Shown here one piece after another: positions 28,361 through 51,193 of a stretch of 64,000 nt of DNA. Within the stretch, counting starts at the first letter, position 1, and the number at the start of each line of letters is the position of its first letter. The notes below the pieces were generated by a model, which was given only the letters and a program-made list of their open reading frames with translations, ran no database searches and was not told the DNA's origin. The position numbers were made by a program, and so were the translations under genes. The DNA is from Clostridium pasteurianum (lineage in GTDB: Bacteria; Bacillota; Clostridia; Clostridiales; Clostridiaceae): assembly GCF_001705235.1 (NCBI RefSeq), contig NZ_MCGV01000001.1:2108001-2172000 (forward strand), given 5' to 3'.

Positions 28361-28508
28361 GTATTTTAGAAACAATTTAAATAAAATTCAATAAGCCCTG
28401 CTTTAAATTATAAAAAGACTTAGAAATTTTAATCTGTCTGAACGATAGTGAGTTATTAAAATTTCTTAGTATTTTTATAATTTGGGCTTGGCTGAGGTTT
28501 GAATAAAG
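28361..28508. repeat. Palindromic intergenic element, copy 1
   Basis: A long imperfect hairpin: the left arm from 28370 pairs with a right arm ending near 28504. The apical sequence CTGTCTGAACGATAGTGAG is identical to copy 2. Just after it come a GAGG...GCCCATTATTCTTC segment like the 40.25 kb tandem and a hairpin AGCTTTCC/GGAAAGCT (28586-28614). Confidence 0.8.
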
Positions 28509-28633
28509 CCCATTATTCTTCTTTACTAAATGCTACCTAATCTCTTTGTTATACCAGACAAAATTTAAGCAAGATAATAATTTAAAGCTTTCCGTAGAGA
28601 ATCGTAGGAAAGCTATCATTGTTCTTTTACTTT

Positions 28634-28823
28634 AAGGTAATTATATGTATTTTATAAACAATTTAAATAAACTTCAATAAGCCTTGCTTTAAATTATAAA
28701 AAGACTTAAAAATTTTAATCTGTCTGAACGATAGTGAGTTATTAAAATTTCTTAGTATTTTTATAATTTAAAGCTTAGGCTTATGAAGTTTATTTAATGT
28801 TTTAAAATACGTATAATTACCTT
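28634..28823. repeat. Palindromic intergenic element, copy 2
   Basis: Terminal inverted repeats AAGGTAATTATA (left) and TATAATTACCTT (right), with about 60 further imperfectly paired bases inside and a loop identical to copy 1. Its right end meets the stop codon (28823-28825) of the minus-strand adaptor lipoprotein gene. Confidence 0.82.
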
Positions 28824-29662
28824 TATTTTCTGCTTATACTTAAATCCACTGAAGAATTAGGTAGTAATTTTCCGTCATTGTCATCTATTGAAACCTCTAC
28901 CGGAATATACGAATCATCATCATCTGAGCTTGAGCTTACAGAAGAACTGCTGCTGCCATTGCTGCTGCTAGATACTACACTTTTCCCTACATAAGTTACC
29001 TTACCTTTATACGATTTTCCAGAATAAGACTGAGTTGATATAGTAACATTCTGACCGTCTTTTATATCGTTTATATTTTCCTCAGGCACCTTTGCCATAA
29101 CCTCAAGGTCTTTTAAATCTTGTACAGTTATAACATTTTTTTCTGGGCTTAGTATATCTCCTTTTGAATACCCTACATTTGTAACTACAGCATCGTCCAT
29201 ATCACATATTATAGAACTCCCACTTATATAACTTTTATTTAATTTGCTCTTTATAGAGTTAATCTCATCATTGTAGCCATCAATGGTTTTTTGCTCCATA
29301 TCTTTTTGATCTTGATCTGGCATTTTATCCTTTTTTATATTTTCAGCATCAATTTCATTTTGGATTTTATTTATATTAGAGTTATAATCACTTAAATCTA
29401 AATCTACTAACTTATCGTTTTTCCTAACTTCCTGCCCTGATTTAACATGTACATCAGACACACTTATTGATATGTCCTGAGACATTCCAAGTGAAATATT
29501 CTCTACATTCTTTGATTTTACAGTTCCAGTTATCTGTATTGCATTGGCATCCTTTTTAGCTTTTCCCTTATTGCCATTATTTGATGAACCGCTGCCGCAT
29601 CCTACAGCAAGAGACATAACTCCTGCAAGTGCAACGGAAATTATCAATTTACTTCTCTTCAT
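28823..29662 (-). CDS. HlyD-like membrane-fusion/adaptor lipoprotein
   Basis: 279 residues with a lipobox LAVGC at about 18-22, so exported and lipid-anchored. The N-terminal beta strand ITGTVKSKNVENISLGMSQD and the later half VTISTQSYSGKSYKGKVTYVG flank a coiled coil (about 80-145), the biotinyl-lipoyl-hairpin arrangement of HlyD/MacA adaptors. A Ser-rich linker is near 235-250. It ends the operon 33065 to 28823 and probably couples those ABC proteins to an extracytoplasmic step. It stops where a palindromic element begins. Confidence 0.82.
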   Translation of the reverse strand: MKRSKLIISVALAGVMSLAVGCGSGSSNNGNKGKAKKDANAIQITGTVKSKNVENISLGMSQDISISVSDVHVKSGQEVRKNDKLVDLDLSDYNSNINKIQNEIDAENIKKDKMPDQDQKDMEQKTIDGYNDEINSIKSKLNKSYISGSSIICDMDDAVVTNVGYSKGDILSPEKNVITVQDLKDLEVMAKVPEENINDIKDGQNVTISTQSYSGKSYKGKVTYVGKSVVSSSSNGSSSSSVSSSSDDDDSYIPVEVSIDDNDGKLLPNSSVDLSISRK

Positions 29663-29689
29663 AATTAATTCCTCTCTTCCTAAATTTAT

Positions 29690-30907
29690 TTATACTAGCA
29701 TATCCTTTTTTGTGAACCAAATATGAGCTATTATATAACTTACAGCCCCTGTAATTAAATTAACAGCTATTCCGAGGCTAACTGAAATATCTGGATTTTT
29801 AATCTGATTTGCTAAATCTCCACTTAGTAAAAATCCTGGTGAAGAATAAGTATTTATTAAATATGGAGCTATCCTCCTAAAAGGCACATCTCCAGCTGCA
29901 CTTCCATCACCAGCCGTTACTTTTATAATGATAAAACTTATAATAACAGCAATAACTATTCCTGAAGTCATAGATAAAGTATTGCTATTTGCAATTACTG
30001 ATATTAACATGCAAATACTTGTAAAACATATTATAAAAAGTATTTGCAGTGCAAACATCTCAATAATAAACTTCCACTGAGGCATTACATAAGAACTTCC
30101 GAGAACAGCCTCAACATCGTGCCAGTTCCCTGCCAATACTTTACTTGCATTAAATTCATACCTGGTTCCAAGCGTCATAGGTGCATTAATTTTGCCGAAT
30201 CCCACCACAAATCCAAGTATTATAAGAGATATTAATTCCGAACAAGCTATGGCTATGACACTTGCAATAGATGATGCTGCAAATTTTGAAAACAGTATTT
30301 TACCCCTAGAAAAAGGCTTGGTTAAAAGCATTTTCATTGTAGGCGGCGCACACTCACCAGACACTACATCAAGAGATATTATACATATTATTACTGGCAA
30401 AATAATGAGCGAAATAACTGATATCATCTCATCAAACACGTCTATAGCCTTTTCATCATAATCGTTTGATACATCAGATATATTGTTTTTAAGCGCATAT
30501 TTTTTAGCTAAAATTTCCTCATTAACCTGTTCTATTTTTGTGTTATCTCCTGCTATATCCGAGGAGTTCTTCTTTTTTTCATCATCACTTATTTGCTTCT
30601 CTATTCTGTCCTTCCAGTTTAATTTTCCAAGATCCTCTGCACGGTATGACTTACGGATCTGTTCCTTATACTGTGCGATATTTTCCTTAATACTTTTTTG
30701 ACCATTAGCATCCTGATATGACATATAGCTCTTTAGTGCAGATATATTCTTTTCATTTTCAGTTATAGTTTGTGCTGGAGTTTTATGTGAAGCTTTATAT
30801 TGAACTATTGAAAATAAAAGTATAATAGCTATAAATACTATACTTACAACCAAAACTTTTCTTCTTTTAAATATTTTTTGAAGCTCATTTGTTATAAGTC
30901 TATACAA
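29690..30907 (-). CDS. ABC exporter permease (ABC-2 type), second of the operon
   Basis: 405 residues starting at TTG with GGAGGG upstream. The first helix (about 18-36), an extracytoplasmic Lys/Glu-rich region (about 45-160) and five or six C-terminal helices match the paralogues at 25313 and 30932. It ends in FTKKDMLV. It lies between the first permease and the adaptor; the short spacing implies one transcript. With its sister it likely forms a heterodimeric channel. Confidence 0.88.
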   Translation of the reverse strand: MYRLITNELQKIFKRRKVLVVSIVFIAIILLFSIVQYKASHKTPAQTITENEKNISALKSYMSYQDANGQKSIKENIAQYKEQIRKSYRAEDLGKLNWKDRIEKQISDDEKKKNSSDIAGDNTKIEQVNEEILAKKYALKNNISDVSNDYDEKAIDVFDEMISVISLIILPVIICIISLDVVSGECAPPTMKMLLTKPFSRGKILFSKFAASSIASVIAIACSELISLIILGFVVGFGKINAPMTLGTRYEFNASKVLAGNWHDVEAVLGSSYVMPQWKFIIEMFALQILFIICFTSICMLISVIANSNTLSMTSGIVIAVIISFIIIKVTAGDGSAAGDVPFRRIAPYLINTYSSPGFLLSGDLANQIKNPDISVSLGIAVNLITGAVSYIIAHIWFTKKDMLV

Positions 30908-30931
30908 TTTATTCCCTCCTCTCTTAAAAAA

Positions 30932-32146
30932 TTAGGCAAGTACATCTCTTTTAGAAAATACAAAAGCAGATATTCCAAAACATACTACTGTATAAACTAT
31001 AAATACACCTATTCCCATACTCACTGTTATCATAGGATTGTTTGCTCTTTTCGCCATAAGTCCTGATAAAATCAAATCCGTAGATGAATATGTCATAATA
31101 AGATATGGTGTTATTTTAGATAAAGCTTTTGGAATAGCTCCACTTAGCGTCATTATGCCTATTATTGACATAACAAGTCCTATCCCTACGCTTACTCCTA
31201 TAGTTACAGCAGAATTCTTTATGAGAGTAGAAATTAAAAAGCATATAGAAACACAACCTAATATAAATAGTAGATCCAATCCTGCCATATAAATTAAATA
31301 TTTTCCTGTAGATATAATATATGAAGATCCCAGTACCGGAGAAATTCCAGTCTCACCATTTGATAAAACTACAGATGGGTCATACTGATAGAGAGTTCCT
31401 ACTGTCATTACCTCTGAAAGATTAGGGAAACCATCCATAAACGATAAAACAAAATAAGTTATTATCTGAGGCACCATTACAAGAAATACATTTGCACCCA
31501 AAATTGCAATAAACTTTGAAAGTAATATTTTAAATCTAGATGCAGGCTTTGCTAATAGCATTTTAATAGTTACACTTGAATACTCAAAGCTCACTATATC
31601 TGAAGTTACTACTGCAATTATAATAAACAGCACAATGATTTGTACAAATGCTTTTGAATCTAGAAAACCCTCTAAAGCATTATCACCAGCTTTATTATAA
31701 ATATTAATATTATTATCAACATAGTATTGAGCCGTCATAACATCCATATTGGCTTTTTCAATATCTTCATTTTTTCCTTTGCCTTTAGCTTTCATAAGTG
31801 CATGCTTTTTATCCCTCAAATCCTTATTAAGTCTCATTTGCCAGTTTAAATCTTTTTCTGATTCTTGCTTTTGCAAATCCTTTATGTTTTTTTCATCTTC
31901 CTTAATAGATTGCTTTATCTTCTTTCGCTGATCAGCTTTAACACTTGCACTTTTGAGCTCACTTTTATAAGATTTTATCCCCGCTTTATACATTGCAATT
32001 CTCTGTTTAGGTTCACTGTATTTTTTTGAATTTGAGTACTGTAAAACAGAATATGCCATGAAAATAGCCAAAAATACTATAAAAGTTATCCAAAACTTTT
32101 TTCTTTTTATTATTTTATAAAGCTCATTACTTATTAGACCCCACAT
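30932..32146 (-). CDS. ABC exporter permease (ABC-2 type), first of the operon
   Basis: 404 residues. One N-terminal helix, a coiled-coil-like Lys/Glu-rich region (about 40-150), helices from about 160 onward and the terminal FSKRDVLA. It overlaps the ATPase by 20 nt, so translation is coupled. It differs more from the 25313 permease than from the 29690 one in the extracytoplasmic region only by eye; all three are clearly homologous in their C-terminal part. Confidence 0.88.
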   Translation of the reverse strand: MWGLISNELYKIIKRKKFWITFIVFLAIFMAYSVLQYSNSKKYSEPKQRIAMYKAGIKSYKSELKSASVKADQRKKIKQSIKEDEKNIKDLQKQESEKDLNWQMRLNKDLRDKKHALMKAKGKGKNEDIEKANMDVMTAQYYVDNNINIYNKAGDNALEGFLDSKAFVQIIVLFIIIAVVTSDIVSFEYSSVTIKMLLAKPASRFKILLSKFIAILGANVFLVMVPQIITYFVLSFMDGFPNLSEVMTVGTLYQYDPSVVLSNGETGISPVLGSSYIISTGKYLIYMAGLDLLFILGCVSICFLISTLIKNSAVTIGVSVGIGLVMSIIGIMTLSGAIPKALSKITPYLIMTYSSTDLILSGLMAKRANNPMITVSMGIGVFIVYTVVCFGISAFVFSKRDVLA

Positions 32147-33065
32147 CTTTCTCCTCCCCTCCTTCTACTATTTGCATAAACCTATCCTCAAGGGTTTTAT
32201 GTTCTTTATAAAATTCAATGACTTCAACATTTTGCTTCATAAGTTCTTCTATTACCTTAGGAGAAGTTCCAAAATCTATTTCTACTGAAACACTATTTTC
32301 ATTCTTTTCTACATCATATACAAATGGCAACTTCGATAAAATTTCAATGGCTAAATCTATATTACTTGTAACTATATCAAACTTTTCCTTGCTGCCCTTG
32401 CCTGCACTTTCTTTTGTACTTTCTACTGATTTTATTTCCCCACCATTTATAAAAGCAACAGTATCACAGACCTGCTGTATTTCAGCAAGTATATGCGACG
32501 AAATAAAAACAGCAGACTTATTTTCATGAGCCATTTGTCTTATTATCCTTCTAAAATCCATAATTCCAACAGGATCAAGACCATTTGTAGGCTCATCAAG
32601 TATTAAAAGCTTAGGTTTTACTAAAAGAGCCTGACCAAGCCCAAGTCTCTGCTTCATTCCAAGAGAATATTTTTTTACTTTGTCATTAATTCTATCCTTA
32701 AGTCCAATTATATCCGCAACTTCATCTATTCTCTCTTTTGTTACATTTCCATACATCTTTGCATACTGAATAAGATTTTCCCTTCCAGTGAGAAAACCAT
32801 ACATATCAGGATTTTCAACTATGCATCCAACATTGCTAAGAGCCTTTTCCTTCTCAGTTTGAATATCATGTCCCATTATTTTTATACTTCCTGAATTCGG
32901 TTTAATAAGTCCAACCAGCATTCTTATCGTTGTTGTCTTACCTGCACCATTAGGTCCCAAGAATCCAAAAATTTGTCCTTCATCTACAGAAAAACTCATT
33001 CCTCTTATTATCTCTCTTTTGCCTAAGCGCTTTTTTACGTCTTTAACTTCAAGGACTACTGCCAT
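32127..33065 (-). CDS. ABC exporter ATPase, BcrA-type
   Basis: 312 residues, close paralogue of the ATPase at 24370. Walker A GPNGAGKT, signature YSLGMKQRLGLG, Walker B LLILDEPTNGLDP and SSHILAE are all present. A C-terminal accessory segment (about 225-312) ends in EDRFMQIVEGG, like EDRYMELVNGG in the paralogue. First gene of the four-gene operon ATPase-permease-permease-adaptor. GGAGGG precedes the start. It suggests duplication of a locus. Confidence 0.93.
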   Translation of the reverse strand: MAVVLEVKDVKKRLGKREIIRGMSFSVDEGQIFGFLGPNGAGKTTTIRMLVGLIKPNSGSIKIMGHDIQTEKEKALSNVGCIVENPDMYGFLTGRENLIQYAKMYGNVTKERIDEVADIIGLKDRINDKVKKYSLGMKQRLGLGQALLVKPKLLILDEPTNGLDPVGIMDFRRIIRQMAHENKSAVFISSHILAEIQQVCDTVAFINGGEIKSVESTKESAGKGSKEKFDIVTSNIDLAIEILSKLPFVYDVEKNENSVSVEIDFGTSPKVIEELMKQNVEVIEFYKEHKTLEDRFMQIVEGGEEKDVGSNK

Positions 33066-33214
33066 ATTTTACCCTCCTTATTTGTATTTATATAAAACTA
33101 TAGCTTTCATGCATGTAGTTTCATTCAAGACTTTTTACGGTACATTAAAATAATATATTAAAAACTTAAAATAATACTTATGTAATTCTTAAATTTTCCT
33201 TAATTTACAGCAAA

Positions 33215-33251
33215 GTCGCCTTTGTTATATATATAATATAACAAAGGCGAC
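33215..33251 (-). terminator. Hairpin after the YtrABC-like operon
   Basis: 16-bp perfect stem GTCGCCTTTGTTATAT with 33236-33251, 5-nt loop. T-run weak on both sides. Confidence 0.65.
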
Positions 33252-33282
33252 AATTTTACAATAACTATTTAGTGAAATTTTC

Positions 33283-34251
33283 CTATTTAATTATTCTGAC
33301 AGAACCATATATTGATAATCCTGCAATTGCTATTGATGTGACTATATACAATAAGATCTTGCTCTGATTAGGATATTGAAAAATTATAGTCATTGCCATC
33401 ATTGTAATGACTATAACAAAAATTATCCTTAAAACATATGTAAATGGTTTATACATACTTAAATTATACTTATTTTCTAATGGAATATTTTCAAAAATCT
33501 TAACCATGATAAAGAAAACTAGCATTGAGAAAGTAATTAACACTAAAATTCTTACAATAGGTTTCAAGGTCATATTATTCATATTATTATAATAGGCAAC
33601 CATATAAACTTCATGTGAATAGCTAAATTTAATGCCATACAAATTCAAAAATTCTCTCAAAAGCTCTTCTCCATTTTTCCATAAAAATAATAGAATGACA
33701 CTTGTAATCACACCCGCTATATTATTTCCATGAAGTGATTGAATAAACATAATAAATGTAATGATAAATATACACGTTAATACATTTAACACCATCCACT
33801 CTAGCATAAATCTATATCTATTAATTGAATTCAAAATACTATAATTTATAAAATATATGCCAAATATAAAGCAGTAGTCTATAATCAAAGGAATAACTAC
33901 TGAAATAGCTGCCATAATCCACTTACTTTCTATTATTTGTTTCCTAGTATATGACATAGAAATAAGTCTCTCACGGCCTCCATTTAAATAATCTGCAGCC
34001 ATGATAATAAACACTGAGAAAAATACCACCGCTATAATAATTAAAGTCATTTTTTCGCCAAAATAATTCTGTATATGAAAGTGTGGATCTAAGGCAAACT
34101 TTTTCATATTTTTATTATTTGAACTTATAAAGAAATTAATCTGGCTCAAATAACTTGCAAAAATTTGAGAAGATGAAATTATTAATAAAAAAATATTTAT
34201 CAAAATAAGCCATCTTACATAAACCCATTCTTTTTTGAGTAAATTTTTCAT
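33283..34251 (-). CDS. ABC exporter membrane subunit, last gene of the YtrA-type operon
   Basis: About 322 residues starting MKNLLKKEWVYVRW; the ATG at 34251 has GGGGTGA 5 bp upstream and is better than the in-frame ATG at 34269. Helices are predicted near 15-35, 80-100, 120-145, 155-180, 185-205, 240-262, 275-297 and 300-318. The N-terminal basic-aromatic motif before the first helix recalls its partner at 34253. It is a membrane component of an exporter with the ATPase at 35268, not a recognised fold otherwise. Confidence 0.78.
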   Translation of the reverse strand: MKNLLKKEWVYVRWLILINIFLLIISSSQIFASYLSQINFFISSNNKNMKKFALDPHFHIQNYFGEKMTLIIIAVVFFSVFIIMAADYLNGGRERLISMSYTRKQIIESKWIMAAISVVIPLIIDYCFIFGIYFINYSILNSINRYRFMLEWMVLNVLTCIFIITFIMFIQSLHGNNIAGVITSVILLFLWKNGEELLREFLNLYGIKFSYSHEVYMVAYYNNMNNMTLKPIVRILVLITFSMLVFFIMVKIFENIPLENKYNLSMYKPFTYVLRIIFVIVITMMAMTIIFQYPNQSKILLYIVTSIAIAGLSIYGSVRIIK

Positions 34252-34252
34252 A

Positions 34253-35287
34253 TTATTCACCCCATCCATATCTGCTTAATTTTATAAACTTATCAATACA
34301 CCCATAGGCAAAATAGCATGCTATTATAAAAATCATATTTAATATAAAAATATACATCACAATATCATAACCTATTAATCTTGACATTCCATCTGCCGCA
34401 AAAAATCCTATAAATATTGAAGAAAATATTCTAAATACTATTTCCTTTTTAATCGTTGTTTTAAACATTACGTTTTCATTTATATCTAATTTTTTAATTA
34501 TATGAATAAGAATAATTCCCACTATAATTAAAAATATTATAAGTTTTATAATATTAGGCACTATTTCTTCTGAAAGCAAATAGACTTTACCTCCGATACT
34601 TTGGGTTCTTGCATGTATTTTAAAATAATTTAATATGTACAGATTATCTATAAATTTATCTGCCGTATTAGCTGCACCTTCTCCAAATTTTTTAACAGTT
34701 ACAGCATCTATAATAATCTCTATAGAAGATGGAAATTTGATTACAGACACACCTAAAAGTGCAGCAAAAGCGCCATTTTTACATAAACACTGTATACCTA
34801 TTAAAATAATGTATTCTATAGAAAGCACCAAAAAAGTTATAATAAAAAAGCCAATGATATATTTTAATTTAATAATCCTCTCTAAATACATGTAATTACC
34901 AAAAAAGGTAATAGAATTTATTAAAACTCCCACAATGCCAGCAATAAATATAATTCCTATTCCAACTATAACCTTTGCAAACATTCTTTCGTTTTTATTA
35001 AAGGGCATATAATTTAAAAGATTTTTTACTGAGCCCAATCTATCACGGCTAATAATAAAATATGACATAATTATAATTACAAGTACAAAAGCATATATTT
35101 GTGAATTGCAGTCAAAACCAAAAAATATTTGTATTCCCTCATAGTAATTTCCACGATATTTTTTTGCATAATCTACTATACTACTCATCTTTAAAGCCTT
35201 TATGTTTAATAGAGTAAGTGGCAAAATAAACCACCATATATTTTTCCACTCCTTATATAAAAGAGCCTTATTTAAGTATTTCTTCAT
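34253..35287 (-). CDS. ABC exporter membrane subunit
   Basis: About 344 residues starting MKKYLNKALLYKEWKNIWW; GACAGGAG sits directly upstream of the ATG at 35287, and this start overlaps the ATPase end by 20 nt. About eight hydrophobic segments. Layout and context fit the permeases of the Ytr type. The stop is one base from the next start, so the two permeases are co-translated. Confidence 0.8.
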   Translation of the reverse strand: MKKYLNKALLYKEWKNIWWFILPLTLLNIKALKMSSIVDYAKKYRGNYYEGIQIFFGFDCNSQIYAFVLVIIIMSYFIISRDRLGSVKNLLNYMPFNKNERMFAKVIVGIGIIFIAGIVGVLINSITFFGNYMYLERIIKLKYIIGFFIITFLVLSIEYIILIGIQCLCKNGAFAALLGVSVIKFPSSIEIIIDAVTVKKFGEGAANTADKFIDNLYILNYFKIHARTQSIGGKVYLLSEEIVPNIIKLIIFLIIVGIILIHIIKKLDINENVMFKTTIKKEIVFRIFSSIFIGFFAADGMSRLIGYDIVMYIFILNMIFIIACYFAYGCIDKFIKLSRYGWGE

Positions 35288-36648: not shown

Positions 36649-36765
36649 CGGTATTTTAAATCTTTTCGTATTTTACATGGTAACAACGATACCCATCCAT
36701 GAATATTATATTATGAACCACTACTAATGGATTATCTTCCTATGGATAACCCTAAGGGAGGTCAT

Positions 36766-37371
36766 ATGAATATAGTTGAAATATTAGCTTTTGCTATAAT
36801 AATAAATGTAGATAATTTCATCGTTGGAATTGCTTATGGAATAAGAAAATTAAAGATAAATCTTTTTATAAATATAATTATAGGACTAATGTCTTTCTTT
36901 GTTACACTATTTTCCATGGCTGTTGGAAAGTTTGCATGCCGCTTCCTACCTAAATATGTATCAAATATACTTGGAAGTTGTATACTTCTAATAATGGGTT
37001 TGTACTATATACTAGGTTTCTTTATAAGAAAATCTAAAGGTAAAAAAAAGTCCTCTAATAAAAATAATAACAGCTTATTAGAAAACCCTGAAAGAGCAGA
37101 CGTTGATAATTCCGGAAACATTGATATTAAAGAATCTATAACTTTAGGATTTGCACTCTCACTAAATAATGTAGGTATTGGCATCGGCGCTAGTATCGCA
37201 GGAATTAACATATACGAAGCCTCAATTTCGATTTTTATCTTCAGTATAATTTCAATCCCCATTGGATATTTCCTGGGAAGTAAATATTTTTCTAAGTTAT
37301 TTGGCGATTATGGAGAACTTATATCAGGTATAATAATACTTATATTGGCACTTTATCAGATGTTTTTGTAG
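36766..37371 (+). CDS. ytaF: Sporulation membrane protein YtaF (MntP family)
   Basis: About 201 residues starting at ATG 36766 with GGGAGGTC just upstream; a longer frame from 36727 has no such site. Six helices in two sets of three, with NVDNFIVGIAYGIRK in the first and SLNNVGIGIGASIAG in the second: the repeated D/N-bearing motif of the MntP/LysE-like cation exporters. A Lys/Asn-rich cytoplasmic loop joins them. YtaF is expressed in sporulation in Bacillus; a manganese or other divalent-cation role is inferred from MntP. Its stop is four bases from a palindromic element. Confidence 0.87.
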   Translation: MNIVEILAFAIIINVDNFIVGIAYGIRKLKINLFINIIIGLMSFFVTLFSMAVGKFACRFLPKYVSNILGSCILLIMGLYYILGFFIRKSKGKKKSSNKNNNSLLENPERADVDNSGNIDIKESITLGFALSLNNVGIGIGASIAGINIYEASISIFIFSIISIPIGYFLGSKYFSKLFGDYGELISGIIILILALYQMFL

Positions 37372-37374
37372 ATA

Positions 37375-37550
37375 AGGTGAAGTAACAATGCTGAATGAAC
37401 ATTAAAAAAATTTAATAAATCTAAGGTAAAAAAATTATAAAATCCTAATGCATTTCAATAACTCCCTATCGGTCAAACAAATTGAAATATCTAAGTATTT
37501 TATGATTTTTTTACCAAGATTTATTAGAATTCTTTTAAATCGTTCTTTCA
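37375..37550. repeat. Palindromic intergenic element, copy 3 (inverted)
   Basis: It fills the gap between two convergent genes. The apical loop is the complement of the loop in copies 1, 2 and 5, so the element is in the other orientation. Arms are CTGAATGAAC... on the left and ...GTTCTTTCAG on the right. Confidence 0.78.
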
Positions 37551-37559
37551 GTAAACAAA

Positions 37560-40232: not shown

Positions 40233-40252
40233 AGAAATTGCAAAATTATCAT

Positions 40253-40375
40253 ATGCGAGGCTTGGGCTTTGCCCATTATCCTTCTTAACCTAATAGTAGC
40301 ATTCTCTAAATTATGCGAGGTTTTGGCGGAGCCAATTACCCTTCTTAATCATATAAAAGCACTCTTACCATATAC
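40253..40375. repeat. 60-bp tandem repeat, two units plus a partial third
   Basis: Units start with ATGCGAGG at 40253 and 40313; a degenerate third start ACGAG is at 40374. Each has a GGCnnnGCC hairpin-like core and ATTAyCCTTCTTAA. A single related unit lies at 28490-28545. Only two clear units and no unique spacers: not a CRISPR. Confidence 0.72.
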
Positions 40376-40377
40376 GA

Positions 40378-40718
40378 GTTATTGAAATATCTTAGGATTT
40401 TATGATTTTTTTATCTTAGATTTATTAACAAGCATTCGTAGAAAAACGAAGAAAAATATTCCTTGTTTTCCTTTTAGGTAAAGTAACAATATTTTGTAAA
40501 CGATTCAAACAAAACTCAATAAGTCTTGCCCCAAATTATAAAAAGACTTAAAAATTTTAATTTGTCTGCAAAAATGCTGGTTAATACATAAAAATTTACA
40601 CCCAAAATTCCGTAGGCACGGAGGAATTTTTTCCTTGCACTACCTAAAAAGCTAAGTAAGAATGCGTTGGAACGATTTATTTCATTTTTTTAATGTTCCA
40701 ACGCGTTCTTACTTAGCC
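40378..40718. repeat. Composite of palindromic-element fragments
   Basis: 40378-40435 matches the right half of the element at 51111-51165. 40500-40570 matches the left half of the 28634 element. 40604-40638 carries CCGTAGGCACGGAGG, identical to 50957-50971. 40651-40717 is a clean hairpin with arms GCTAAGTAAGAAtGCGTTGG and its complement, ending 2 bp from the bofA stop. Confidence 0.75.
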
Positions 40719-40719
40719 A

Positions 40720-40974
40720 CTACATTATGGCTTTCAGTATAATCAAAAATATAACTCCCGGCACTCCAAAAACTCCAGCTATAAGTGCCGTTACAACATT
40801 TATTCCTATATTGATTCCTATGTATTTTCCAAAGATATTTAAAACAAAAAGCATTACCGCTCCTATTGCTCCATTTATAATTAACTTTATTAGCATCTTA
40901 AGCGGCCATGCCAAAAGCCTTACTATTACAAATATAACTATTATAGATACAAGAAAATATCCTATATATTCCAA
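40720..40974 (-). CDS. bofA: BofA-family protein, pro-sigmaK processing inhibitor
   Basis: 84 residues, two hydrophobic helices (about 4-25 and 30-56) and a hydrophobic C-terminal third. VNVVTALIAGVFGVPGVIFLIIL is the family-typical end. BofA holds the sigmaK protease in check in the forespore membrane of sporulating cells. It lies after recR and yaaL as in Bacillus and Clostridium. Confidence 0.88.
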   Translation of the reverse strand: MEYIGYFLVSIIVIFVIVRLLAWPLKMLIKLIINGAIGAVMLFVLNIFGKYIGINIGINVVTALIAGVFGVPGVIFLIILKAIM

Positions 40975-44194: not shown

Positions 44195-44463
<269 letters not shown>

Positions 44464-44473
44464 AAAGATTAAA

Positions 44474-44563
44474 TGGCGGAGAAAGAGGGATTCGAACCCT
44501 CGGTAGAGTTTCCCCTACACACGCGTTCCAGGCGTGCTCCTTAAACCTCTCGGACATCTCTCC
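44474..44563 (-). tRNA. tRNA-Ser (anticodon GGA)
   Basis: 90 nt including encoded CCA. The anticodon loop CTGGAAC between CACGC and GCGTG gives GGA. The long variable arm (TGTAGGGGAAACTCTACC) is the class II serine type. Confidence 0.95.
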
Positions 44564-44599
44564 ATAGTTTCACTTTTAGACATACCCAACTTGTTATCA

Positions 44600-45320
44600 T
44601 AGACATACTACTAAAAGCTTATTTAATCGATACGAATTACATTATATATGATTGAATTCAAATAGTCAAGCAAGAAATTTAATCCAAAAATGCTATCTAT
44701 TTAATGCACGTTTTCATACTTCTCAAACAGCTTTTAGCATAATATTTTAGAAAAAAAAATTAAGACTATAGTACATCTTAAAATTTTAACTTGTACATAT
44801 TAAATTTTTTATAGTAATTTACTAAAAGGTATAGTAATTTAAGATAAATGCAAAAGTTTTTATACCCATATTTCTCAATCCCATTAATTTTATTTATTAT
44901 ATATTATTTTTACCCTTGATTATTGACATTTTTAGCCATATTAGACTATTATACTTATAAATCCCATTTACCCCTTACTATACCTCATATACTAATACTA
45001 TCATTTTTTTTTAAATTATTCAATATTTTTTAAAATTATACTGTAATTGTTACTGCCTTTTTATTTACTTTATTATGTGACTTACAACTAAATTATTCTT
45101 GCATTGAATTTTATGTCGTTTTGAATAATTTTATACTTAATATATCGAATAAAATTATCCATACCTTTACATAGCTTGTACTTTTATAAAAACATATGAG
45201 AATACAATCGAAATGATACTACTACATTTATCAGTAAACACCACTATACTACCCCTTATTATATTTCAGTATAATATATTATAAATGGTTCTTGTTGAAA
45301 TAAAACATGGTATGAAAGAT
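44600..45320. other. AT-rich region without genes
   Basis: About 720 bp between the two tRNA-Ser transcripts. No reading frame with a ribosome site, no strong hairpin. TATAGTAATTTA occurs twice near 44810-44840. The region could be the remains of a lost gene. Confidence 0.5.
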
Positions 45321-45324
45321 AAAA

Positions 45325-45367
45325 AAAGTGCTGATATCAATTTAAAAAATCATTAATACAGCACTTT
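45325..45367 (-). terminator. Terminator of the tRNA-Ser(CGA) transcript
   Basis: AAAGTGCTG/CAGCACTTT stem, 25-nt loop, with a run of seven T on the minus strand after it. Confidence 0.7.
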
Positions 45368-45402
45368 ATACTTAAATGTTTCGTATATTATTTTTGTTTT
45401 CT

Positions 45403-45464
45403 CGCTTCGAGCGACCCGCAAAAGGTCATTTAGACCTTTCGCCCCTCGGTACGGTTTGCAAACC
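45403..45464. repeat. Chain of three mini-hairpins 3' of tRNA-Ser
   Basis: CGCTTCGAGCG (45403-45413), AAAGGTCATTTAGACCTTT (45421-45439) and GGTTTGCAAACC (45453-45464). CCTCGGTaCGGTTTG (45444-45458) matches the variable arm of the adjacent tRNA-Ser, so part of it may be a tRNA remnant. Confidence 0.5.
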
Positions 45465-45515
45465 ACACCTAATCTATTTTTAATTTCGTTATTATTTCAA
45501 TTTTAGTTGTTGTTT

Positions 45516-45607
45516 TGGCGGAGGGAGAGGGATTTGAACCCTCGGTGCGGTTTGAACCGCACACATGATTTCGAGTCATGCACGTTAGACCACTCCGACA
45601 TCCCTCC
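45516..45607 (-). tRNA. tRNA-Ser (anticodon CGA)
   Basis: 92 nt with CCA. Anticodon loop CTCGAAA between CATGA and TCATG. Long variable arm TGTGCGGTTCAAACCGCACC. Acceptor GGAGGGA pairs with TCCCTCC. Confidence 0.95.
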
Positions 45608-45689
45608 AATACTAACATATTATACTAAACTTACCGCTAAAAATCAAATTACAGGAGATTTTAGTTGAGCAATTGAAATAATCTTAAAA

Positions 45690-46130
45690 TTATCGCTTTT
45701 GCCTAAAAAATTCTTTCAAAATGTCGCTGCACTCTTGTGAATATAACCATTCAACTTGCGTATTATATTTTAAATATTGATTTTGTATTAAATTCACTAC
45801 TGAACCGCAAGCTCCCGATATGGGATCAAAAGTTCCTATATAAATCTTGCTTATCCTGCTTTGGCATATACATGCTGCACACATGGGACATGGCTCTAAA
45901 GTAACATACATCTCACAACCTTTAAGTCTCCAGTTGCTTAGCTTTTTAGTTGCTTTTTCTATTGCAATAATTTCAGCATGTGCTGATGGGTTATTTAATT
46001 CTTCTTTAAGATTATGTGCCTGAGATATAATTTTATTATCTTTTACAATAATTGCACCAACAGGTATTTCTCCGTTAACTTTAGCAAGCTTAGCCTCATT
46101 TAAAGCTTCTTGTAAAAATTCATACTTCAT
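45690..46130 (-). CDS. tadA: tRNA-specific adenosine deaminase TadA
   Basis: 146 residues. Zinc-site HAEIIAIEKA near 51-60 and PCPMCAACI near 82-90 are the deaminase motifs with catalytic Glu. It converts A34 to inosine in tRNA-Arg. It stands next to tRNA-Ser and dnaX as in many clostridia. Confidence 0.95.
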   Translation of the reverse strand: MKYEFLQEALNEAKLAKVNGEIPVGAIIVKDNKIISQAHNLKEELNNPSAHAEIIAIEKATKKLSNWRLKGCEMYVTLEPCPMCAACICQSRISKIYIGTFDPISGACGSVVNLIQNQYLKYNTQVEWLYSQECSDILKEFFRQKR

Positions 46131-46301
46131 ATACTAAATCACCACAAAATTCACTCTCTTTAAATTGTAACTATACAAGTTTAATTAATAAATCATTATT
46201 TAAAGTAGTATGCTTTTGATATTTCTACGAAACTTACAAAATTTAAACAAGTGATTTACTTTCATATCTATTTATATTATGTACACAATTCTGCTTAAAA
46301 A

Positions 46302-46667
46302 TTAATCCCTTAAAACCTTTTCCATAGCATTAATCAAATCAGTACGTTTAAAGGGTTTGGCAATAAAAGACTGTGCACCATTTTTAACTGCTTGCCTTAC
46401 CATAGTTTCTTGAGCCGCTGCTGTTACCATTACTATTTTAGCTTTTGGATCATAGTCAATAATCCTTTTTACAGCTTCAATACCATCAATTCCTTCCATC
46501 ATAATATCCATAGTTACTATATCAGGATTCAACTTCTTGTACTGCGAAATTCCAGCAGACCCGTTTTCAGCTTCACCTACAACCTCAAACCCATTATCTT
46601 CAACTAATTGCTTAATGGACCTACGTACAACCGCAGCATCATCAACAATAAGAACCTTCTTTGACAT
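46302..46667 (-). CDS. cheY: CheY-like single-domain response regulator
   Basis: 121 residues, receiver domain only. Acid pair D9/D10 in VDDAAVVRRS, phospho-site in VTMDIMMEGIDG near 55, T/A in MVTAAAQE and K near 105 in AKPFKRTD, all as in CheY. In some Clostridium it neighbours che genes; here no other che gene is visible, so it may act with distant partners or in another phospho-relay. AGGAG upstream. Confidence 0.9.
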   Translation of the reverse strand: MSKKVLIVDDAAVVRRSIKQLVEDNGFEVVGEAENGSAGISQYKKLNPDIVTMDIMMEGIDGIEAVKRIIDYDPKAKIVMVTAAAQETMVRQAVKNGAQSFIAKPFKRTDLINAMEKVLRD

Positions 46668-46844
46668 AAACTTATAGTACTCCTCTCATACCGAATGTGT
46701 ATTTTTGAAAATTTTATGTTAATATTTTTCTAGCTTATATTTTTAAAGCACATCCAAATTATTGAAAATATCTTTCCCTTTGTTAATATATATCATATTT
46801 CTTATTTTTTCAATATTCTTTTGCAAGATTCGCCGTATTTTTAA

Positions 46845-46893
46845 AAAAAGTATCAGTTATATGAAATTTAATTCCATATAACTGATACTTTTT
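46845..46893 (-). terminator. cooS terminator
   Basis: GTATCAGTTATATG and its complement with flanking A/T runs, about 19 paired bases, 11-nt loop. Confidence 0.9.
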
Positions 46894-46910
46894 TACTTAT
46901 ATAACTATCT

Positions 46911-48800
46911 TTAATTAAGCCCCAACTTTTTCCTTCTATCTATTATTTCACTCTCAAGCTTATCTGCAGCTTTTACTACATCACCTTCTATTATAAGTTT
47001 TCCACCTGTTATATTAGTAAGATCATCTTCTAATAACTTTGATACAACAGGACTTCCATCAATAAAAGGAGAAATTGCAAGGTGAAGTGGCAATCCAAGT
47101 GAAAGTCCAAATGCTCCATCTGCTAAAGCTTGCTCTTCAAGCCACTGTGGTGCCGAAAGTACAAGCGGTAGCTGAGGAATATCTATTTCTAAATACTCTG
47201 CAAGTTCCTTTGCCACAATTTCAAGTCTCCCTATAGCAAGACATGGTCCAAAATTTAGTACCGGAGGAATACCTAATGACTTACATACTTCTTTCAAACT
47301 ATCACCTGCAAGTTCAGCAGCTGATGGAGACATAAGACCTACATTTTCAAGTCCCCCACTGGAGCATCCAGCTGATAATACAATAATATTTCTTTTTATA
47401 AGTTCTTTTGTAAGTTCTACAGTAAATACATCATGGCCTTTAGCTGTAAGATTTGAACATCCAACAACACCTGCTACCCCTTTTATTTTTCCAGAAGCAA
47501 TCAAATCAACAAGTGGCTTCCATGTTCCTCCAAGAAAATCCTTAAGCGATTTTTCACTTACTCCTGTAACAACATCATCATATCCATGGTTCTTAGGTAT
47601 ATTAATGGTTATATTTTTTCTTCTATTTTTATAGCTTTTAAGTGCTTCATCTATTATGTGGTTGGATATGTCTTCTCTTTCTTCGTAACTGTATCTTACA
47701 AATTCTGCATTTTTCTTTTTAGCTACATCATCAACACATATCATTTTCACTTCAAATTTATCTGCAATTGGTTCAATTCCTGGAAGAGTGCAGTTAAATT
47801 CAGACAAAACAAGATCTATTCCTCCTGTAGCCATTAAAGCTTCACTTGTAAAGTTATTTCCCGCATGTCCTGAGAATACTTCTTTATAATGTTCCCCTCT
47901 AAGCTGGAGATCCTGACCTACACATGTACATCCAACTATTCTAAAGCCCTTAGCGCCTAACTTGTTTGCCATCTCAGTTGCATCTTTGTCAATTAATCTC
48001 TGCTGTAGATGCTCTATTATTGAATGTTGATGTCCTGTTATCATTATATTTATATAATCTGGGTCTACTACCTTAAATCCGACCTTTGCCTGCCTTATTG
48101 CTGGTTCACCCAGTATGACATCATTCAGTAAGTTTGTTAATGTAAGGCCATATAAACCAGTTGATATTCCAAGTGTAAGACAATTTACAATCATGTCTAC
48201 AGGATCACTATTTAAATTTGTTGAAGTTTTAACTATAGCATCAAAAACTTCCGACTTAGCACCACCTGGAAGAATATTAAGGTCAGTCCACTTCTTTAAT
48301 CTAGGAGTATACGCTATTTTATCTATAAGCTCTGTCTTCTCAAATCTTGGTTTATATAAATCTCCTATTACCGCATCTGCTATTTTAACTGCCTTTTTAT
48401 GTTCATCCACTTCTTTTATTTTAAACATATCTGCAAGTTTATTAAGTGTATATTTTCCCCTTATAATTTCATTATTCTCACCTATGGACTTTAAGTTTCT
48501 CGCTGTAGTTTCAACTACGTGAAGATAACAAGCAGTCCCAGCTGCAACTGCTCTTAAAAAATTCCTAGCAACTATTGTATCAGCATCCGCACCACAAATA
48601 CCTCTTGGTGACTTTGGTGTTATTCTACATGGTCCATTGGCACAGAGCTTGCAGCATACACCCTCTTTTCCAAATTTACATTTGTTCTTTTGACTTTCTA
48701 CTCTATGCTCTGATGTTTCAACATTATTTAAACTGCATATAAAATTATGAAGAATCTCATCTGCATCATCACAAACATGGCAATTTTGACATTCACTCAT
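46911..48800 (-). CDS. cooS: Anaerobic CO dehydrogenase, catalytic subunit
   Basis: 629 residues. It interconverts CO and CO2 at a Ni-Fe-S cluster in the cytoplasm. Near the N-terminus C41, C49, C50, C53 and C58 (CCKLCANGPCRI) hold the D and B clusters. C-cluster residues lie in GCTCVGQDLQLRGEH, FNCTLPG, GVVGCSNLTAKG, SAGCSSGG and FGPCLAIGR. Length is normal for monofunctional CooS. There is no CooF, hydrogenase or acetyl-CoA synthase subunit next to it, so it is a stand-alone enzyme for CO oxidation or detoxification. Its start is preceded by an operator shared with the Rrf2 gene upstream. Confidence 0.96.
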   Translation of the reverse strand: MSECQNCHVCDDADEILHNFICSLNNVETSEHRVESQKNKCKFGKEGVCCKLCANGPCRITPKSPRGICGADADTIVARNFLRAVAAGTACYLHVVETTARNLKSIGENNEIIRGKYTLNKLADMFKIKEVDEHKKAVKIADAVIGDLYKPRFEKTELIDKIAYTPRLKKWTDLNILPGGAKSEVFDAIVKTSTNLNSDPVDMIVNCLTLGISTGLYGLTLTNLLNDVILGEPAIRQAKVGFKVVDPDYINIMITGHQHSIIEHLQQRLIDKDATEMANKLGAKGFRIVGCTCVGQDLQLRGEHYKEVFSGHAGNNFTSEALMATGGIDLVLSEFNCTLPGIEPIADKFEVKMICVDDVAKKKNAEFVRYSYEEREDISNHIIDEALKSYKNRRKNITINIPKNHGYDDVVTGVSEKSLKDFLGGTWKPLVDLIASGKIKGVAGVVGCSNLTAKGHDVFTVELTKELIKRNIIVLSAGCSSGGLENVGLMSPSAAELAGDSLKEVCKSLGIPPVLNFGPCLAIGRLEIVAKELAEYLEIDIPQLPLVLSAPQWLEEQALADGAFGLSLGLPLHLAISPFIDGSPVVSKLLEDDLTNITGGKLIIEGDVVKAADKLESEIIDRRKKLGLN

Positions 48801-48819
48801 TATTAAAAAATCCTCCTTG

Positions 48820-48844
48820 AAAGTATACCTTTTAAGTATAGTTT
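48820..48844. promoter_or_regulatory. Rrf2-type operator before cooS
   Basis: AAAGTATACC, 5 bp, AGTATAGTTT: the same 10-5-10 layout as the perfect site at 49308-49332 with two changes. It lies 20 bp before the cooS ATG, immediately upstream of the ribosome site. Confidence 0.75.
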
Positions 48845-48878
48845 TTATTCTATAAAAAAGGACAATATATAAAAGTCC

Positions 48879-49292
48879 TTAGTTATTACTATTCTTTAAA
48901 TTTTCAAAATTTATGTTCTCAAGATTATTAATTAAATCTTTTTGAACTTTTGAAAGAGCACTGTGTATTTCACAAAATCCTGTACGTTCCGCATTACAAT
49001 AATGCGGGTCAAGAAGGCATCTATTAACGCCTATAGGCCCATCTATAGACTCTATTACCTGTCTTAAATTGATATCCTTTGGAAGTTTATTTAAAGCATA
49101 TCCACCCTTTACACCTCTATAGGATTTTATAATTCCACTTTTTATTAGTTTCCTTAAAAGCTTAAGTAAAAAACGCAGTGGAAGTTTTTCATGCTCAGCA
49201 ATAGTTGCCGCATCAATCTTTTCTCCATATCCAAGTTTAGATAAATACAATACAACTCTCATACTATAATCTGCTTCTTGTGTTAATCTCAT
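48879..49292 (-). CDS. Rrf2-family regulator with Fe-S cysteines
   Basis: 137 residues. The winged helix MRLTQEADYSMRVVLYL, then LPLRFLLKLLRKLIKSG, and YRGVKGGYAL fit Rrf2. C92, C99 and C107 (RCLLDPHYCNAERTGFCEIH) match the cluster ligands of IscR/NsrR. It likely senses O2, NO or iron-sulfur status. It is upstream of cooS in the same direction with a matching operator before each gene, so it is probably its regulator. GGAGAAAG before the start. Confidence 0.92.
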   Translation of the reverse strand: MRLTQEADYSMRVVLYLSKLGYGEKIDAATIAEHEKLPLRFLLKLLRKLIKSGIIKSYRGVKGGYALNKLPKDINLRQVIESIDGPIGVNRCLLDPHYCNAERTGFCEIHSALSKVQKDLINNLENINFENLKNSNN

Positions 49293-49307
49293 ATCTTTCT
49301 CCTATTT

Positions 49308-49332
49308 AAAGTATACTTTAATAGTATACTTT
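49308..49332. promoter_or_regulatory. Rrf2-type operator before its own gene
   Basis: AAAGTATACT, TTAAT, AGTATACTTT: perfect 10-bp inverted repeat just downstream of the -10 box, as expected for autorepression. Confidence 0.82.
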
Positions 49333-49333
49333 A

Positions 49334-49362
49334 AATATACTACTATTGGCTTATTTTGTCAA
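49334..49362 (-). promoter_or_regulatory. Rrf2 gene promoter
   Basis: TTGACA (49357-49362), 17-bp spacer, TATATT (49334-49339) on the minus strand, next to the operator. Confidence 0.87.
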
Positions 49363-49380
49363 CACTATTAGTAAAAACCC

Positions 49381-49420
49381 AGCCACCATTAATATTAATT
49401 TCCAGCTGTTAATGGTGGCT
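49381..49420 (-). terminator. Terminator of the YdjM-like gene
   Basis: AGCCACCATTAA (49381-49392) pairs perfectly with 49409-49420; T-tracts lie on both sides. Confidence 0.82.
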
Positions 49421-49426
49421 GATTTT

Positions 49427-49963
49427 TTACAATTTACCATGCCTTGTAAAATTATTTATTTCATGTCTTCTTATAAGCTTTACAAAATAATAAGCTATAA
49501 TAATAAATCCTAATATTTCAGAGCAATAATACGTAGGATCTGATATAAGCCTTAGAAGTCCACTTTTAAGCCATTCACCTTCAGGTCTTGTTGGAAAAAT
49601 CCATCCTGTAAAAGGCCAAAATAATATTTTAGGATATAGCCACATACTATCTAAGATAAGATGAATTGCACTTCCCACTCCAAGCATGAGAACACCATTT
49701 TTTTTATACTTCAACTGCCTATATAATCCTATGCAAAGTAATACTATCGAGAATAGCATTGTATGTCCAAATAATCTACTATTATGAAATACATTTCTTA
49801 ATAACCAAGCCCCTATTGGTTTGTCTATAATATCAGGTAATATTGATCCAACAAGCAAAAATCTATAATCTATATTACTTTCTTTTTTTTCTCTATTTAA
49901 AATTGAATTTTCACATAATTTTATCGCACCAGTTGTTATCCCTAAGTGTCCAAAAAATATCAT
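49427..49963 (-). CDS. YdjM/DUF457-like membrane-bound putative hydrolase
   Basis: About 178 residues starting at the ATG 49963 with GAGGAG 7 bp upstream; a GTG at 49978 would place the ribosome site inside the gene. HLGITTGAIKL holds a first His, LLVGSILPDIIDKP and LFGHTMLF, then HLILDSMW hold more metal-ligand-like His/Asp. Four helices. This fits the LexA-regulated, metal-dependent membrane hydrolase family named after YdjM. Role unknown. Confidence 0.75.
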   Translation of the reverse strand: MIFFGHLGITTGAIKLCENSILNREKKESNIDYRFLLVGSILPDIIDKPIGAWLLRNVFHNSRLFGHTMLFSIVLLCIGLYRQLKYKKNGVLMLGVGSAIHLILDSMWLYPKILFWPFTGWIFPTRPEGEWLKSGLLRLISDPTYYCSEILGFIIIAYYFVKLIRRHEINNFTRHGKL

Positions 49964-49984
49964 ACCATTGCTCCTCACTATACA

Positions 49985-50746
49985 TTAAACTATATCCACA
50001 TCATTTTTCTTCATTATGCTAAATATCTGCTCACTTGGTACCTTATCTGTGATAATAGCATCTATATCTTCAAAATGAGCAAACTTATAAGTTCCACCAA
50101 AATAAAATTTACTATTATCCATAACTAGATACACAACTTTACTATTTCTTATTATTGCTTTTTTGGTGTTTCCATCTTCTACTTCAAAAGTGGTAACACT
50201 ATTATCATATAAATCCACACCACAACTTCCTATAAATGCCTTGTTAAATTTATAATTAGATATAACATCTATTGTTGCTGAACATGCATATCCATTTAAA
50301 TCTTTCGAAAGCACTCCTCCTGTAGATATTACTTTTACATTGTTTTCCATGTTTAATATTGAAACTATATCTATCATATTAGTCATAACTGTTACCTTTT
50401 TATCACTTTTAGACAAAAGTTCTGCCAACAAAATATTTGTAGTAGATATATCTAAAAAAATTGTTTCATCTTCCTCTATTAAATCAAAGGCTTTCTTAGC
50501 AATTATTAACTTCTCATCTACATGTGCATGTCTTCTATCACTTATCTTATTATAATGTGCACTTTGTCTTATTGGTATAGCTCCCCCATATGTCCTTTTT
50601 AAAAAATTATTATTTTCTAAATATCTGAGGTCTTTTCTTATACAATCTTCCGTAACATTAAATTTTACGCTTAAATCTTTTACAACTACTTTACCATCTC
50701 GATTTAAAATATCGAGAATAGCATTATATCTTTCCTTCGCAAACAA
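49985..50746 (-). CDS. DeoR-family transcription regulator
   Basis: About 253 residues. I prefer a TTG start at 50746 because GGAGGT lies 9 bp before it and the product then begins FAKERYNAILDILNRDGK, the usual DeoR start; an ATG at 50773 adds nine residues. The N-terminal helix-turn-helix has VVKDLSVKFNVTEDCIRKDLRYLE and KRTYGGAIP. The C-terminal sugar-phosphate sensor has IFLDISTTNILLAELL and FIGSCGVD. Sugar phosphate effector is inferred. No sugar operon is beside it. Confidence 0.9.
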   Translation of the reverse strand: MFAKERYNAILDILNRDGKVVVKDLSVKFNVTEDCIRKDLRYLENNNFLKRTYGGAIPIRQSAHYNKISDRRHAHVDEKLIIAKKAFDLIEEDETIFLDISTTNILLAELLSKSDKKVTVMTNMIDIVSILNMENNVKVISTGGVLSKDLNGYACSATIDVISNYKFNKAFIGSCGVDLYDNSVTTFEVEDGNTKKAIIRNSKVVYLVMDNSKFYFGGTYKFAHFEDIDAIITDKVPSEQIFSIMKKNDVDIV

Positions 50747-50951
50747 GTATATAGTACCTCCATTAGTTTTCATGAATCAAATTTAATTATAGAAACTTTA
50801 TAAAAATTATAACATATAGCATTAATATAAACAAAATCAGAAAAAAGATTCTAATATCAAAGACAAACTCCTCATCTACTGACAAGTGAAGCAATGTCAT
50901 CACCTTACAGATTAATGATAGCTGGCCCACAATTTAGGCACTAATATTTAT

Positions 50952-51193
50952 AAAATTCCGTAGGCACGGAGGAATTTCTTCCTTGCCTTACCCTTAAAGA
51001 GAAGTAACAGTGATGAAGGAACAATTTAAAAAAGTTTTAATAAATCTTGGTTGAAAAATCGTAAAATACTTAGATATTTCAATTTGTCTGAGCATCTTTT
51101 CAGCGAGTTATTGAAATATATTAGTATTTTACGATTTTTTAACCTTAGATTTATTAAACTTTTTTAATGTTCCAAATCACTGTTACTTCTCTT
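50952..51193. repeat. Palindromic intergenic element, copy 5, with CCGTAGG hairpin module
   Basis: 50952-50977 is the CCGTAGGCACGGAGG module, shared with 40604. The main element is 50997-51193: perfect 18-bp terminal repeats AAGAGAAGTAACAGTGAT and complement (51176-51193), long imperfect arms and an apical loop with TTTGTCTGAGC...GCGAGTTATT. Its right end directly abuts the stop codon 51194-51196 of the glnQ-like gene. Confidence 0.85.

Follow-up and report, generated by a model that had tools for sequence, protein, structure and literature searches.

What kind of element are the recurrent intergenic palindromes of a 64,000-nucleotide stretch of the Clostridium pasteurianum genome (NZ_MCGV01000001.1, positions 2,108,001–2,172,000; "the window", i.e., the whole stretch analysed), and what might they do where they stand? 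From the letters of this stretch alone, an original prediction had described a palindrome family with variable arms and a conserved apical loop, and had proposed that either the loop is selected for its function as RNA or the family is a mobilised unit resembling miniature inverted-repeat transposable elements (MITEs). The explanation we find best, and hold with slightly more belief than doubt, is that of a non-autonomous, horizontally spreading DNA hairpin repeat, comparable to repetitive extragenic palindromic (REP) elements or MITEs, which comes to lie where terminators would be and probably takes over their role.

The family is larger than the window had suggested. A search of the whole genome (4.68 Mb, two contigs) with the pattern TGTYTGAN{2,26}GAGTTATT returned 252 exact heads, 130 and 122 on the two strands, against 1 + 0 for the reversed-pattern control; the second contig was also matched by a DNA query derived from one copy. 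Anatomy was studied in 113 stretches chosen around copies (473 kb including the window, about one tenth of the genome), which yielded 177 heads, 147 of them with full arms; details of the 5' hairpin, linker and arms were partly read in the sequence by eye. The unit comprises about 240 bp and consists, in 5' to 3' order on the motif strand, of a short hairpin, a linker with CCTTGC or similar letters, a 5' arm of about 88 bases, the head, and the 3' arm, the arms forming an imperfect palindrome of about 190 bp with the conserved tip. The predicted palindrome was thus recovered, but as part of a longer unit; the prediction had included neither the 5' hairpin and linker nor the position at gene ends and the link to terminators described below. 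In the short hairpin the stem letters are not fixed, and GAG, GAA or TAG follows a CG-loop-CG core; several letter versions exist (by eye and letter counts), and some copies, e.g. that at 37368–37553 of the window, lack the hairpin. The head reads AATTTGTYTGA-X-C-loop-G-Y-GAGTTATT, and its X-Y pair varies on both sides (G-C 120, A-T 40, C-G 7, A-C 4, G-G 1, and G-T 1 among 173 parsed heads). Within 87 bases of the head, 80–98% of the copies pair at most positions, mismatches being common at about 14, 17–18, 36–37 and 59–60 bases from it.

The ends of the unit recur. Among the matches listed for the window copy at 50952–51193, most start at 50950–50953 in both C. hydrogenum (G018) and C. guangxiense (G019), and they end near 51189 in the latter and mostly near 51168 in the former, so that units of about 218–240 bp with near-common ends were found at many places in the two species. 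These common match ends indicate that the 5' hairpin and linker belong to one unit with the palindrome. Nested and tandem copies are present, and pairs of heads less than 900 bp apart comprised 27 on the same strand (mostly 188–260 bp spacing), 20 in minus-then-plus and none in plus-then-minus arrangement. Besides the 147 full copies, the profile pieces in the C. pasteurianum stretches (260 in total) included 75 without the 3' part, some of which may be leftovers of opposite-strand arm matches. Next to a gene, inspection by eye also revealed what is left of an older copy (about 24–34 bases), with an intact newer copy behind it. The C. pasteurianum sample and 33 other loci contained six split units, five with gaps of 101–187 bp and one C. 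pasteurianum pair 1,566 bp apart; an autonomous transposon with the same ends was not found in this material. With about 250 copies, near-common ends, nested and tandem arrangements, patchy occurrence and the 14 empty sites described below, the suggestion of a MITE-like mobilised unit was supported.

As predicted, the arms vary while the loop is kept, and the compensatory changes named in the prediction as a test were strong: the copies' own arms were 92.6% Watson-Crick paired, versus 72.0% for arms exchanged between copies (50 shuffles, maximum 73.7%) and 88.3% when an arm was taken from the nearest other copy (mean 91.6% identical). Identity between the 5' arms of C. pasteurianum copies was 73% (subsample), and 42 of the 64 predicted pairs occurred in at least two Watson-Crick types, each at least three times. 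For the tips, an alignment of 26 rows (8 from C. pasteurianum, 3 each from C. hydrogenum and C. guangxiense, and 12 from other bacteria) showed 97.2% of the cells paired, 70 both-side changes versus 19.6 after shuffling, and a covariation score of 0.658 versus 0.160 shuffled and at most 0.140 with the partner slid. There was no clear excess in the number of pairs with a both-side change (7 vs 6.3 shuffled) or in further pair types (20 vs 17.3 shuffled; 56 of 500). The tip extraction pattern matched 34 of 37 loci; L002 and L232 were left out of a first alignment (32 rows), and six rows that had one T fewer and were out of register (five from G085, a member of another genus, and L102) were left out of the second. 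Because the 12 tips from other bacteria came from a search pattern that fixed the head letters, the invariant head, the AAT/ATT pairing and the C-G pairs of the tips are given by construction; six variable stem pairs are free of this constraint. The head is kept, and any stem letters are tolerated provided that they pair.

Exact heads were detected in four of 194 genomes, namely C. pasteurianum (208), C. hydrogenum (129), G085 (18) and C. guangxiense (15), which means that three of 193 other relatives carry the head; the congener most similar to C. pasteurianum in aligned segments (G020) and 189 others have none. In C. guangxiense, DNA similarity disclosed many more copies with other heads. 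A covariance model matched four of 299 genomes across the phylum, C. pasteurianum included, the other three giving one or two matches near the threshold with tips that look right by eye. In a public set with one genome per species, the strict head occurred in 50 stretches, 27 of C. hydrogenum, 6 of C. guangxiense and 17 of other bacteria; by eye, most of these 17 belong to palindromes, which is hardly true of L073. Versions of the tip were seen in Pseudomonadota, Bacteroidota, metagenome-assembled genomes (MAGs) from rumen or labelled as Cyanobacteria, and clostridia. The generic head TGTYTGAGCGNAGCGAGTT was present, with up to 32 copies (controls 0), in 12 of the 299 genomes searched from the phylum to which Herbaspirillum belongs, and in 87 stretches of viral contigs, for 80 of which the tips were viewed. 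At least six uninterrupted flanking pairs accompanied it in 31 of 47 distinct contexts, as compared to 6.3% with swapped flanks; several frequent viral contexts were devoid of such pairs. The strict head had two matches in viral contigs, both inside open reading frames (ORFs) and not in palindromes. The genes of five viral-contig stretches had no common partner, and no match was obtained for window positions 28634–28823 among plasmids, for 51005–51193 among phages, or for a 131-bp version from L354 among E. coli genomes and plasmids. Between species, the best repeat identity among the matches listed was 91% (C. guangxiense) and 89% (C. hydrogenum), as compared to 66–84% for other aligned segments of these two genomes; as 91% is the best of many matches, this suggests transfer between species without proving it. 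Orthologous copies of C. hydrogenum and C. guangxiense were compared at 15 anchored heads.

Since tip versions occur in several phyla, a widespread hairpin-recognising enzyme may exist. A more far-reaching proposal, which we consider possible though speculative, is that of a cross-phylum class of mobile DNA hairpins (TGTYTGAGC-loop-GCGAGTT with a free stem) which would be moved as folded single strands by an enzyme, would home to and delete clostridial terminators, and would take over termination.

Some further features of the more distant heads were noted. Seven viral contigs (L369, L383, L395, L397, L402, L411 and L422) share a common upstream sequence and differ right after the generic head, as at a boundary; L369 looks like a filamentous prophage by a zot-like ORF (by eye). 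In four pseudomonadotal genomes (G677, G641, G597 and G514), several neighbouring heads lie about 170–600 bp apart as minus-then-plus pairs, among the matches listed. In L069, L083, L084, L093 and L133 (rumen and other MAGs, Herbaspirillum), a second hairpin, of the CTTTCTTTG..CAAAGAAAG type, was seen by eye downstream of the head.

With regard to the folded strand, wobble pairs in the first 84 bases of each arm were counted. G-T exceeded A-C on the motif strand by 74 to 12 in C. hydrogenum (27 of 28 copies), 51 to 7 in G085 (16 of 18) and 209 to 143 in C. pasteurianum (149 of 177), the ratios expected from composition only being 1.43, 1.27 and 1.18, respectively. This bias indicates that the motif strand is the folded strand, clearly in the two relatives and weakly in C. 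pasteurianum. A count without clear bias (G-T 335, A-C 296) was rejected, because its alignments ran beyond the palindrome into the flanks. The C-G-closed tetraloops of C. pasteurianum were of the GNYA type in 38 of 42 cases and never GNRA, and those found elsewhere were GNYA in 23 of 30 cases and GNRA in two; in C. pasteurianum such tetraloops occur in only 42 of 177 heads, 9-base loops being commoner (84). Loops of the C-GNNA-G form are stable in DNA, whereas GNRA is the form preferred by RNA. Because of the GNYA loops and the position of the element, with both neighbouring genes on the opposite strand in 75 of 176 copies, single-stranded DNA is preferred over RNA and is most likely the folded form. 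DNA folding of four isolated tips gave energies near those of shuffled sequences for two, and z values of about –2 to –2.6 for the other two.

The same data bear on the possibility of a structured RNA family, in which the motif strand would be transcribed, the head would bind a protein or ligand, and copies would have spread by recombination. The strong covariation, the wobble bias of C. hydrogenum and G085 and a further pair of letters in the internal loop, which inspection by eye showed in several phyla, would fit such a family, and the wobble bias and the folding of the motif strand agree with the RNA alternative of the original prediction. However, an RNA would hardly be expected to stand opposite to both neighbours so often, to have GNYA rather than GNRA loops, or to show A-C more often than G-T at the X-Y pair. 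Moreover, the 70 bases preceding the left end of the unit contained no conspicuous promoter-like letters (63 of 177 copies anchored), and Rfam 15 contained no family matching at the curated score, the window having been searched at the gathering score and 13 other loci by E-value, where all matches were sub-threshold; one of these, a miRNA match (31.8 bits vs 48 curated) overlaps the head in L450. We therefore regard an RNA family as improbable, although it is the most serious of the rival explanations.

The preferred reading of a DNA hairpin repeat draws further on the position of the copies. The element is intergenic, as only one of 177 copies lies inside an ORF of at least 120 amino acids. 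Of 176 copies with a neighbour on either side, 150 have the 3'-side gene ending at the element, antisense to the palindrome, and 92 the 5'-side gene. Where an ORF of 150 amino acids or more stops on the 3' side no farther than 700 bp away (138 copies), the head is 45–94 bases from the stop codon in 96 cases, a distance that places the stop at or inside the outer arm. A 3'-side gene ending at the element was likewise seen in C. hydrogenum for 25 of the 26 copies examined (20 stretches) and in G085 for 14 of 18. Intergenic regions bearing the element were convergent in 56, codirectional in 63 and divergent in 6 cases; all intergenic regions in the G020 stretches comprised 26, 149 and 34, respectively.

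G020 also provided empty sites. It has no heads, and the profile found no match in 400 kb of its sequence. Flanking alignments bridged 15 syntenic places, of which 14 were examined (gaps of 410–1329 bp in C. pasteurianum vs 30–321 bp in G020); the place left out was C. pasteurianum 1914798/1915182, with a G020 gap of 919 bp. At all 14 sites G020 lacks the element, and at 13 of them it has an intrinsic terminator by a simple rule of stem plus T-run. In convergent regions, a terminator outside the element was found in 18 of 56 regions with an element, in 5 of 7 C. pasteurianum regions without one, and in 24 of 26 G020 regions, which indicates that the elements stand where terminators would be. 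By a longer-stem rule, a hairpin with T-rich tail was present in 144 and 113 of the 177 copies on the two strands. The element probably replaces the function of the terminator, in both directions.

These counts might also be read as a host-owned type of terminator, non-mobile and kept by selection, which evolved in place of ordinary terminators: such a device would be located at gene ends, would have terminators as its counterparts at empty sites, would in most copies have a hairpin with a T-rich tail on either strand (a count made with no control), and would be rare in divergent regions, as the element is (6 of 125). The absence from the congener G020, the tandem and nested copies, and the many broken pieces speak against this idea, and we think it unlikely.

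Several observations weigh against a spreading repeat that replaces terminators. Many between-species repeats match at only 71–87% (among the matches listed), and copies differ among themselves as much as species do; because of this divergence, loss in G020 rather than recent gain in C. pasteurianum is possible. The empty sites rest on one congener, and a target-site duplication was not visible by eye at the 14 sites, the flanks being too diverged. Codirectional regions contained a terminator about equally often with and without an element in the same genome (20 of 63 vs 18 of 57; G020, 64 of 149). By the ordinary terminator rule applied at the gene stop, only one of 100 element-bearing genes scored, as compared to 33 of 169 genes without element and 83 of 280 in G020; the 160 bases scored after element-bearing stops are mostly the element itself. 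The longer-stem counts have no background control, and ORFs were called by length only. As to the strand, the G-T/A-C ratio in C. pasteurianum was 1.46 against the baseline of 1.18, and some wobble pairs are shared by descent. Finally, no mover was found, the searches for Y1 and stand-alone GIY-YIG proteins being negative in C. hydrogenum.

If the DNA hairpin repeat nevertheless is what we take it to be, the conserved head of the tip would be active on one strand in folded form, most likely as single-stranded DNA, and a putative trans-acting protein would recognise it. Copies would come to lie immediately after stop codons and take the position of the intrinsic terminator; the latter would be lost, and the hairpin of the element with T-rich tails on both sides would probably form a two-way terminator. 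The most likely route is the displacement of older hairpins, among them terminators, by new ones; replacement of older hairpins is suggested by the remnants of older copies and by the 75 pieces without 3' part. A mobile repeat would then have changed where transcription ends for many genes in a single genome, and genomes with about 130–250 copies beside a copy-free congener would offer a clean comparison for finding the enzyme.

As for candidate movers, a partner of the Ssn type, i.e., a GIY-YIG single-strand nuclease of the kind whose targets are the NTS repeats of Neisseria, would match the general design of the element, and short stand-alone GIY-YIG frames are encoded in at least 10 of 17 carrier genomes searched. 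C. hydrogenum, however, has a single GIY-YIG match in a 645-amino-acid frame of UvrC length, and no head lies within the 3-kb stretches around the GIY-YIG frames of C. pasteurianum (UvrC, a frame of 194 and a weak one of 150 amino acids). Some stand-alone GIY-YIG genes elsewhere (L170, L173, L174 and L159) have short GTCATT..AATCC-type hairpins on their flanks (by eye), which presumably are what is expected for Ssn/NTS. Identity of the element with Ssn target sites seems very unlikely to us. No more credible is present-day movement by a RAYT/Y1 transposase as in REP elements, despite the dispersed intergenic palindromes at gene ends and the 20 head-outward inverted pairs within 900 bp, because 10 of 26 genomes searched have no Y1_Tnp (PF01797) match, among them C. 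hydrogenum with its 129 copies, eight other head carriers and one non-carrier, and because G020 has four such matches yet no copies.

In the window, the profile marked all places named in the prediction (28351–28488, 28583–28830, 37368–37553 and 50948–51196); as it was built from the 147 C. pasteurianum copies, four of them from the window itself, this test is not independent. Three intact copies fold far below 200 dinucleotide shuffles. Copy 1 (28351–28488, plus strand; E 8e-33, profile positions 81–225 of 288) is truncated at the 3' side and retains the 5' arm, the head TGTCTGAACGATAGTGAGTTATT (28435–28457, genome 2136435–2136457; like the other heads located by exact pattern match) and the start of the 3' arm. 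Copy 2, also on the plus strand, has a short 5' hairpin (AGCTTTC-CG-loop-CG-TAG-GAAAGCT) and a CATTG-type linker at 28584–28633, read in the sequence, a module similar to that of other copies, followed by a full palindrome at 28634–28823 (z –13.5; profile 28583–28830, E 9e-47) with the head at 28721–28743 (genome 2136721–2136743); the palindrome adjoins the stop codon of the minus-strand ORF 28823–29662 of the ORF list. Copy 3, on the minus strand, is a full palindrome (37368–37553; E 3e-39, z –7.1) without a 5' hairpin; its head TGACCGATAGGGAG, with the X-Y pair C-G, is at 37457–37479 (genome 2145457–2145479), and the palindrome adjoins the stop codon of the plus-strand ORF 36727–37371. Copy 4, on the plus strand, consists of a short 5' hairpin (AAATTC-CG-TAGGCA-CG-GAG-GAATTT; 50952–50980), which is the common start of matches in other species, a CCTTGC-type linker (50981–51000, from sequence and letter counts) and a full palindrome (51001–51193; z –16.5 for 51005–51193; profile 50948–51196, E 7e-66) with the head at 51085–51112 (genome 2159085–2159112), its end adjoining the stop codon of the minus-strand ORF 51194–51931. 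The fragments predicted at 40378–40718 resolved into three plus-strand pieces: the 3' part of a head with its 3' arm (40375–40427, E 4e-8); a piece with 5' hairpin, linker and 5' arm that breaks off within the head (TTTGTCTG; 40434–40568, E 6e-25); and an internally deleted copy with 5' hairpin, linker and outer arms only (40588–40725; profile 40588–40679, E 2e-12, the remainder identified by reading the letters).

Inspection by eye showed a second family of hairpins, of the GGATAATGGG..CCCAAACC type and the complement of this, next to copies or in the place of part of them, at 28490–28525 and 40250–40345 of the window and in the C. pasteurianum stretches at 293361, 1126200, 1096800 and 2741900. 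Four C. pasteurianum copies have a similar gap of 179–187 bp in the palindrome, for which this family is a candidate filler. Another short hairpin (CTGAC-GAGNNAAGC-AATGTCA type, by eye) occurs at 50880–50910 and recurs upstream of several units.

Searching the literature by motif letters and topic words gave nothing matching among the titles listed; it left subscription literature mostly uncovered, so the family may have been published. Among known systems, REP, BIME and REPIN sequences are intergenic palindromes present in hundreds of copies, with inverted pairs; the element shares these traits and the hairpin logic, but measures about 240 bp rather than tens of bases, keeps its tip letters while the arms change, and has 129 copies in C. 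hydrogenum, where no Y1 transposase was found. Foldback MITEs are non-autonomous, 100–300 bp long, and have inverted arms, nested copies and empty sites. The size class, arms, nesting and the empty sites in G020 are alike, whereas no matching transposon was found in the stretches searched, no target duplication was seen, and the arms change with pairing kept. With the Ssn/NTS system the element has in common a conserved hairpin head, hundreds of copies and, as we propose, single-strand recognition; its head differs from the GTCATT..AATCC hairpins, and C. hydrogenum has no stand-alone GIY-YIG match. In the attC sites of integrons, one strand folds into an imperfect hairpin whose mismatches are fixed, and the element would be like them in this respect. 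Apart from this, in two pseudomonadotal loci (L447 and L448, near position 1500) the generic head tips a hairpin whose ends look, by eye, like what we take to be integron attC. Uptake-sequence inverted repeats behind genes double as terminators. Compared with such terminator pairs (PMC1852404), the present unit is much longer, has a non-palindromic tip and is patchily spread, but it resembles them in placing inverted repeats behind genes, where it, too, would probably terminate transcription.

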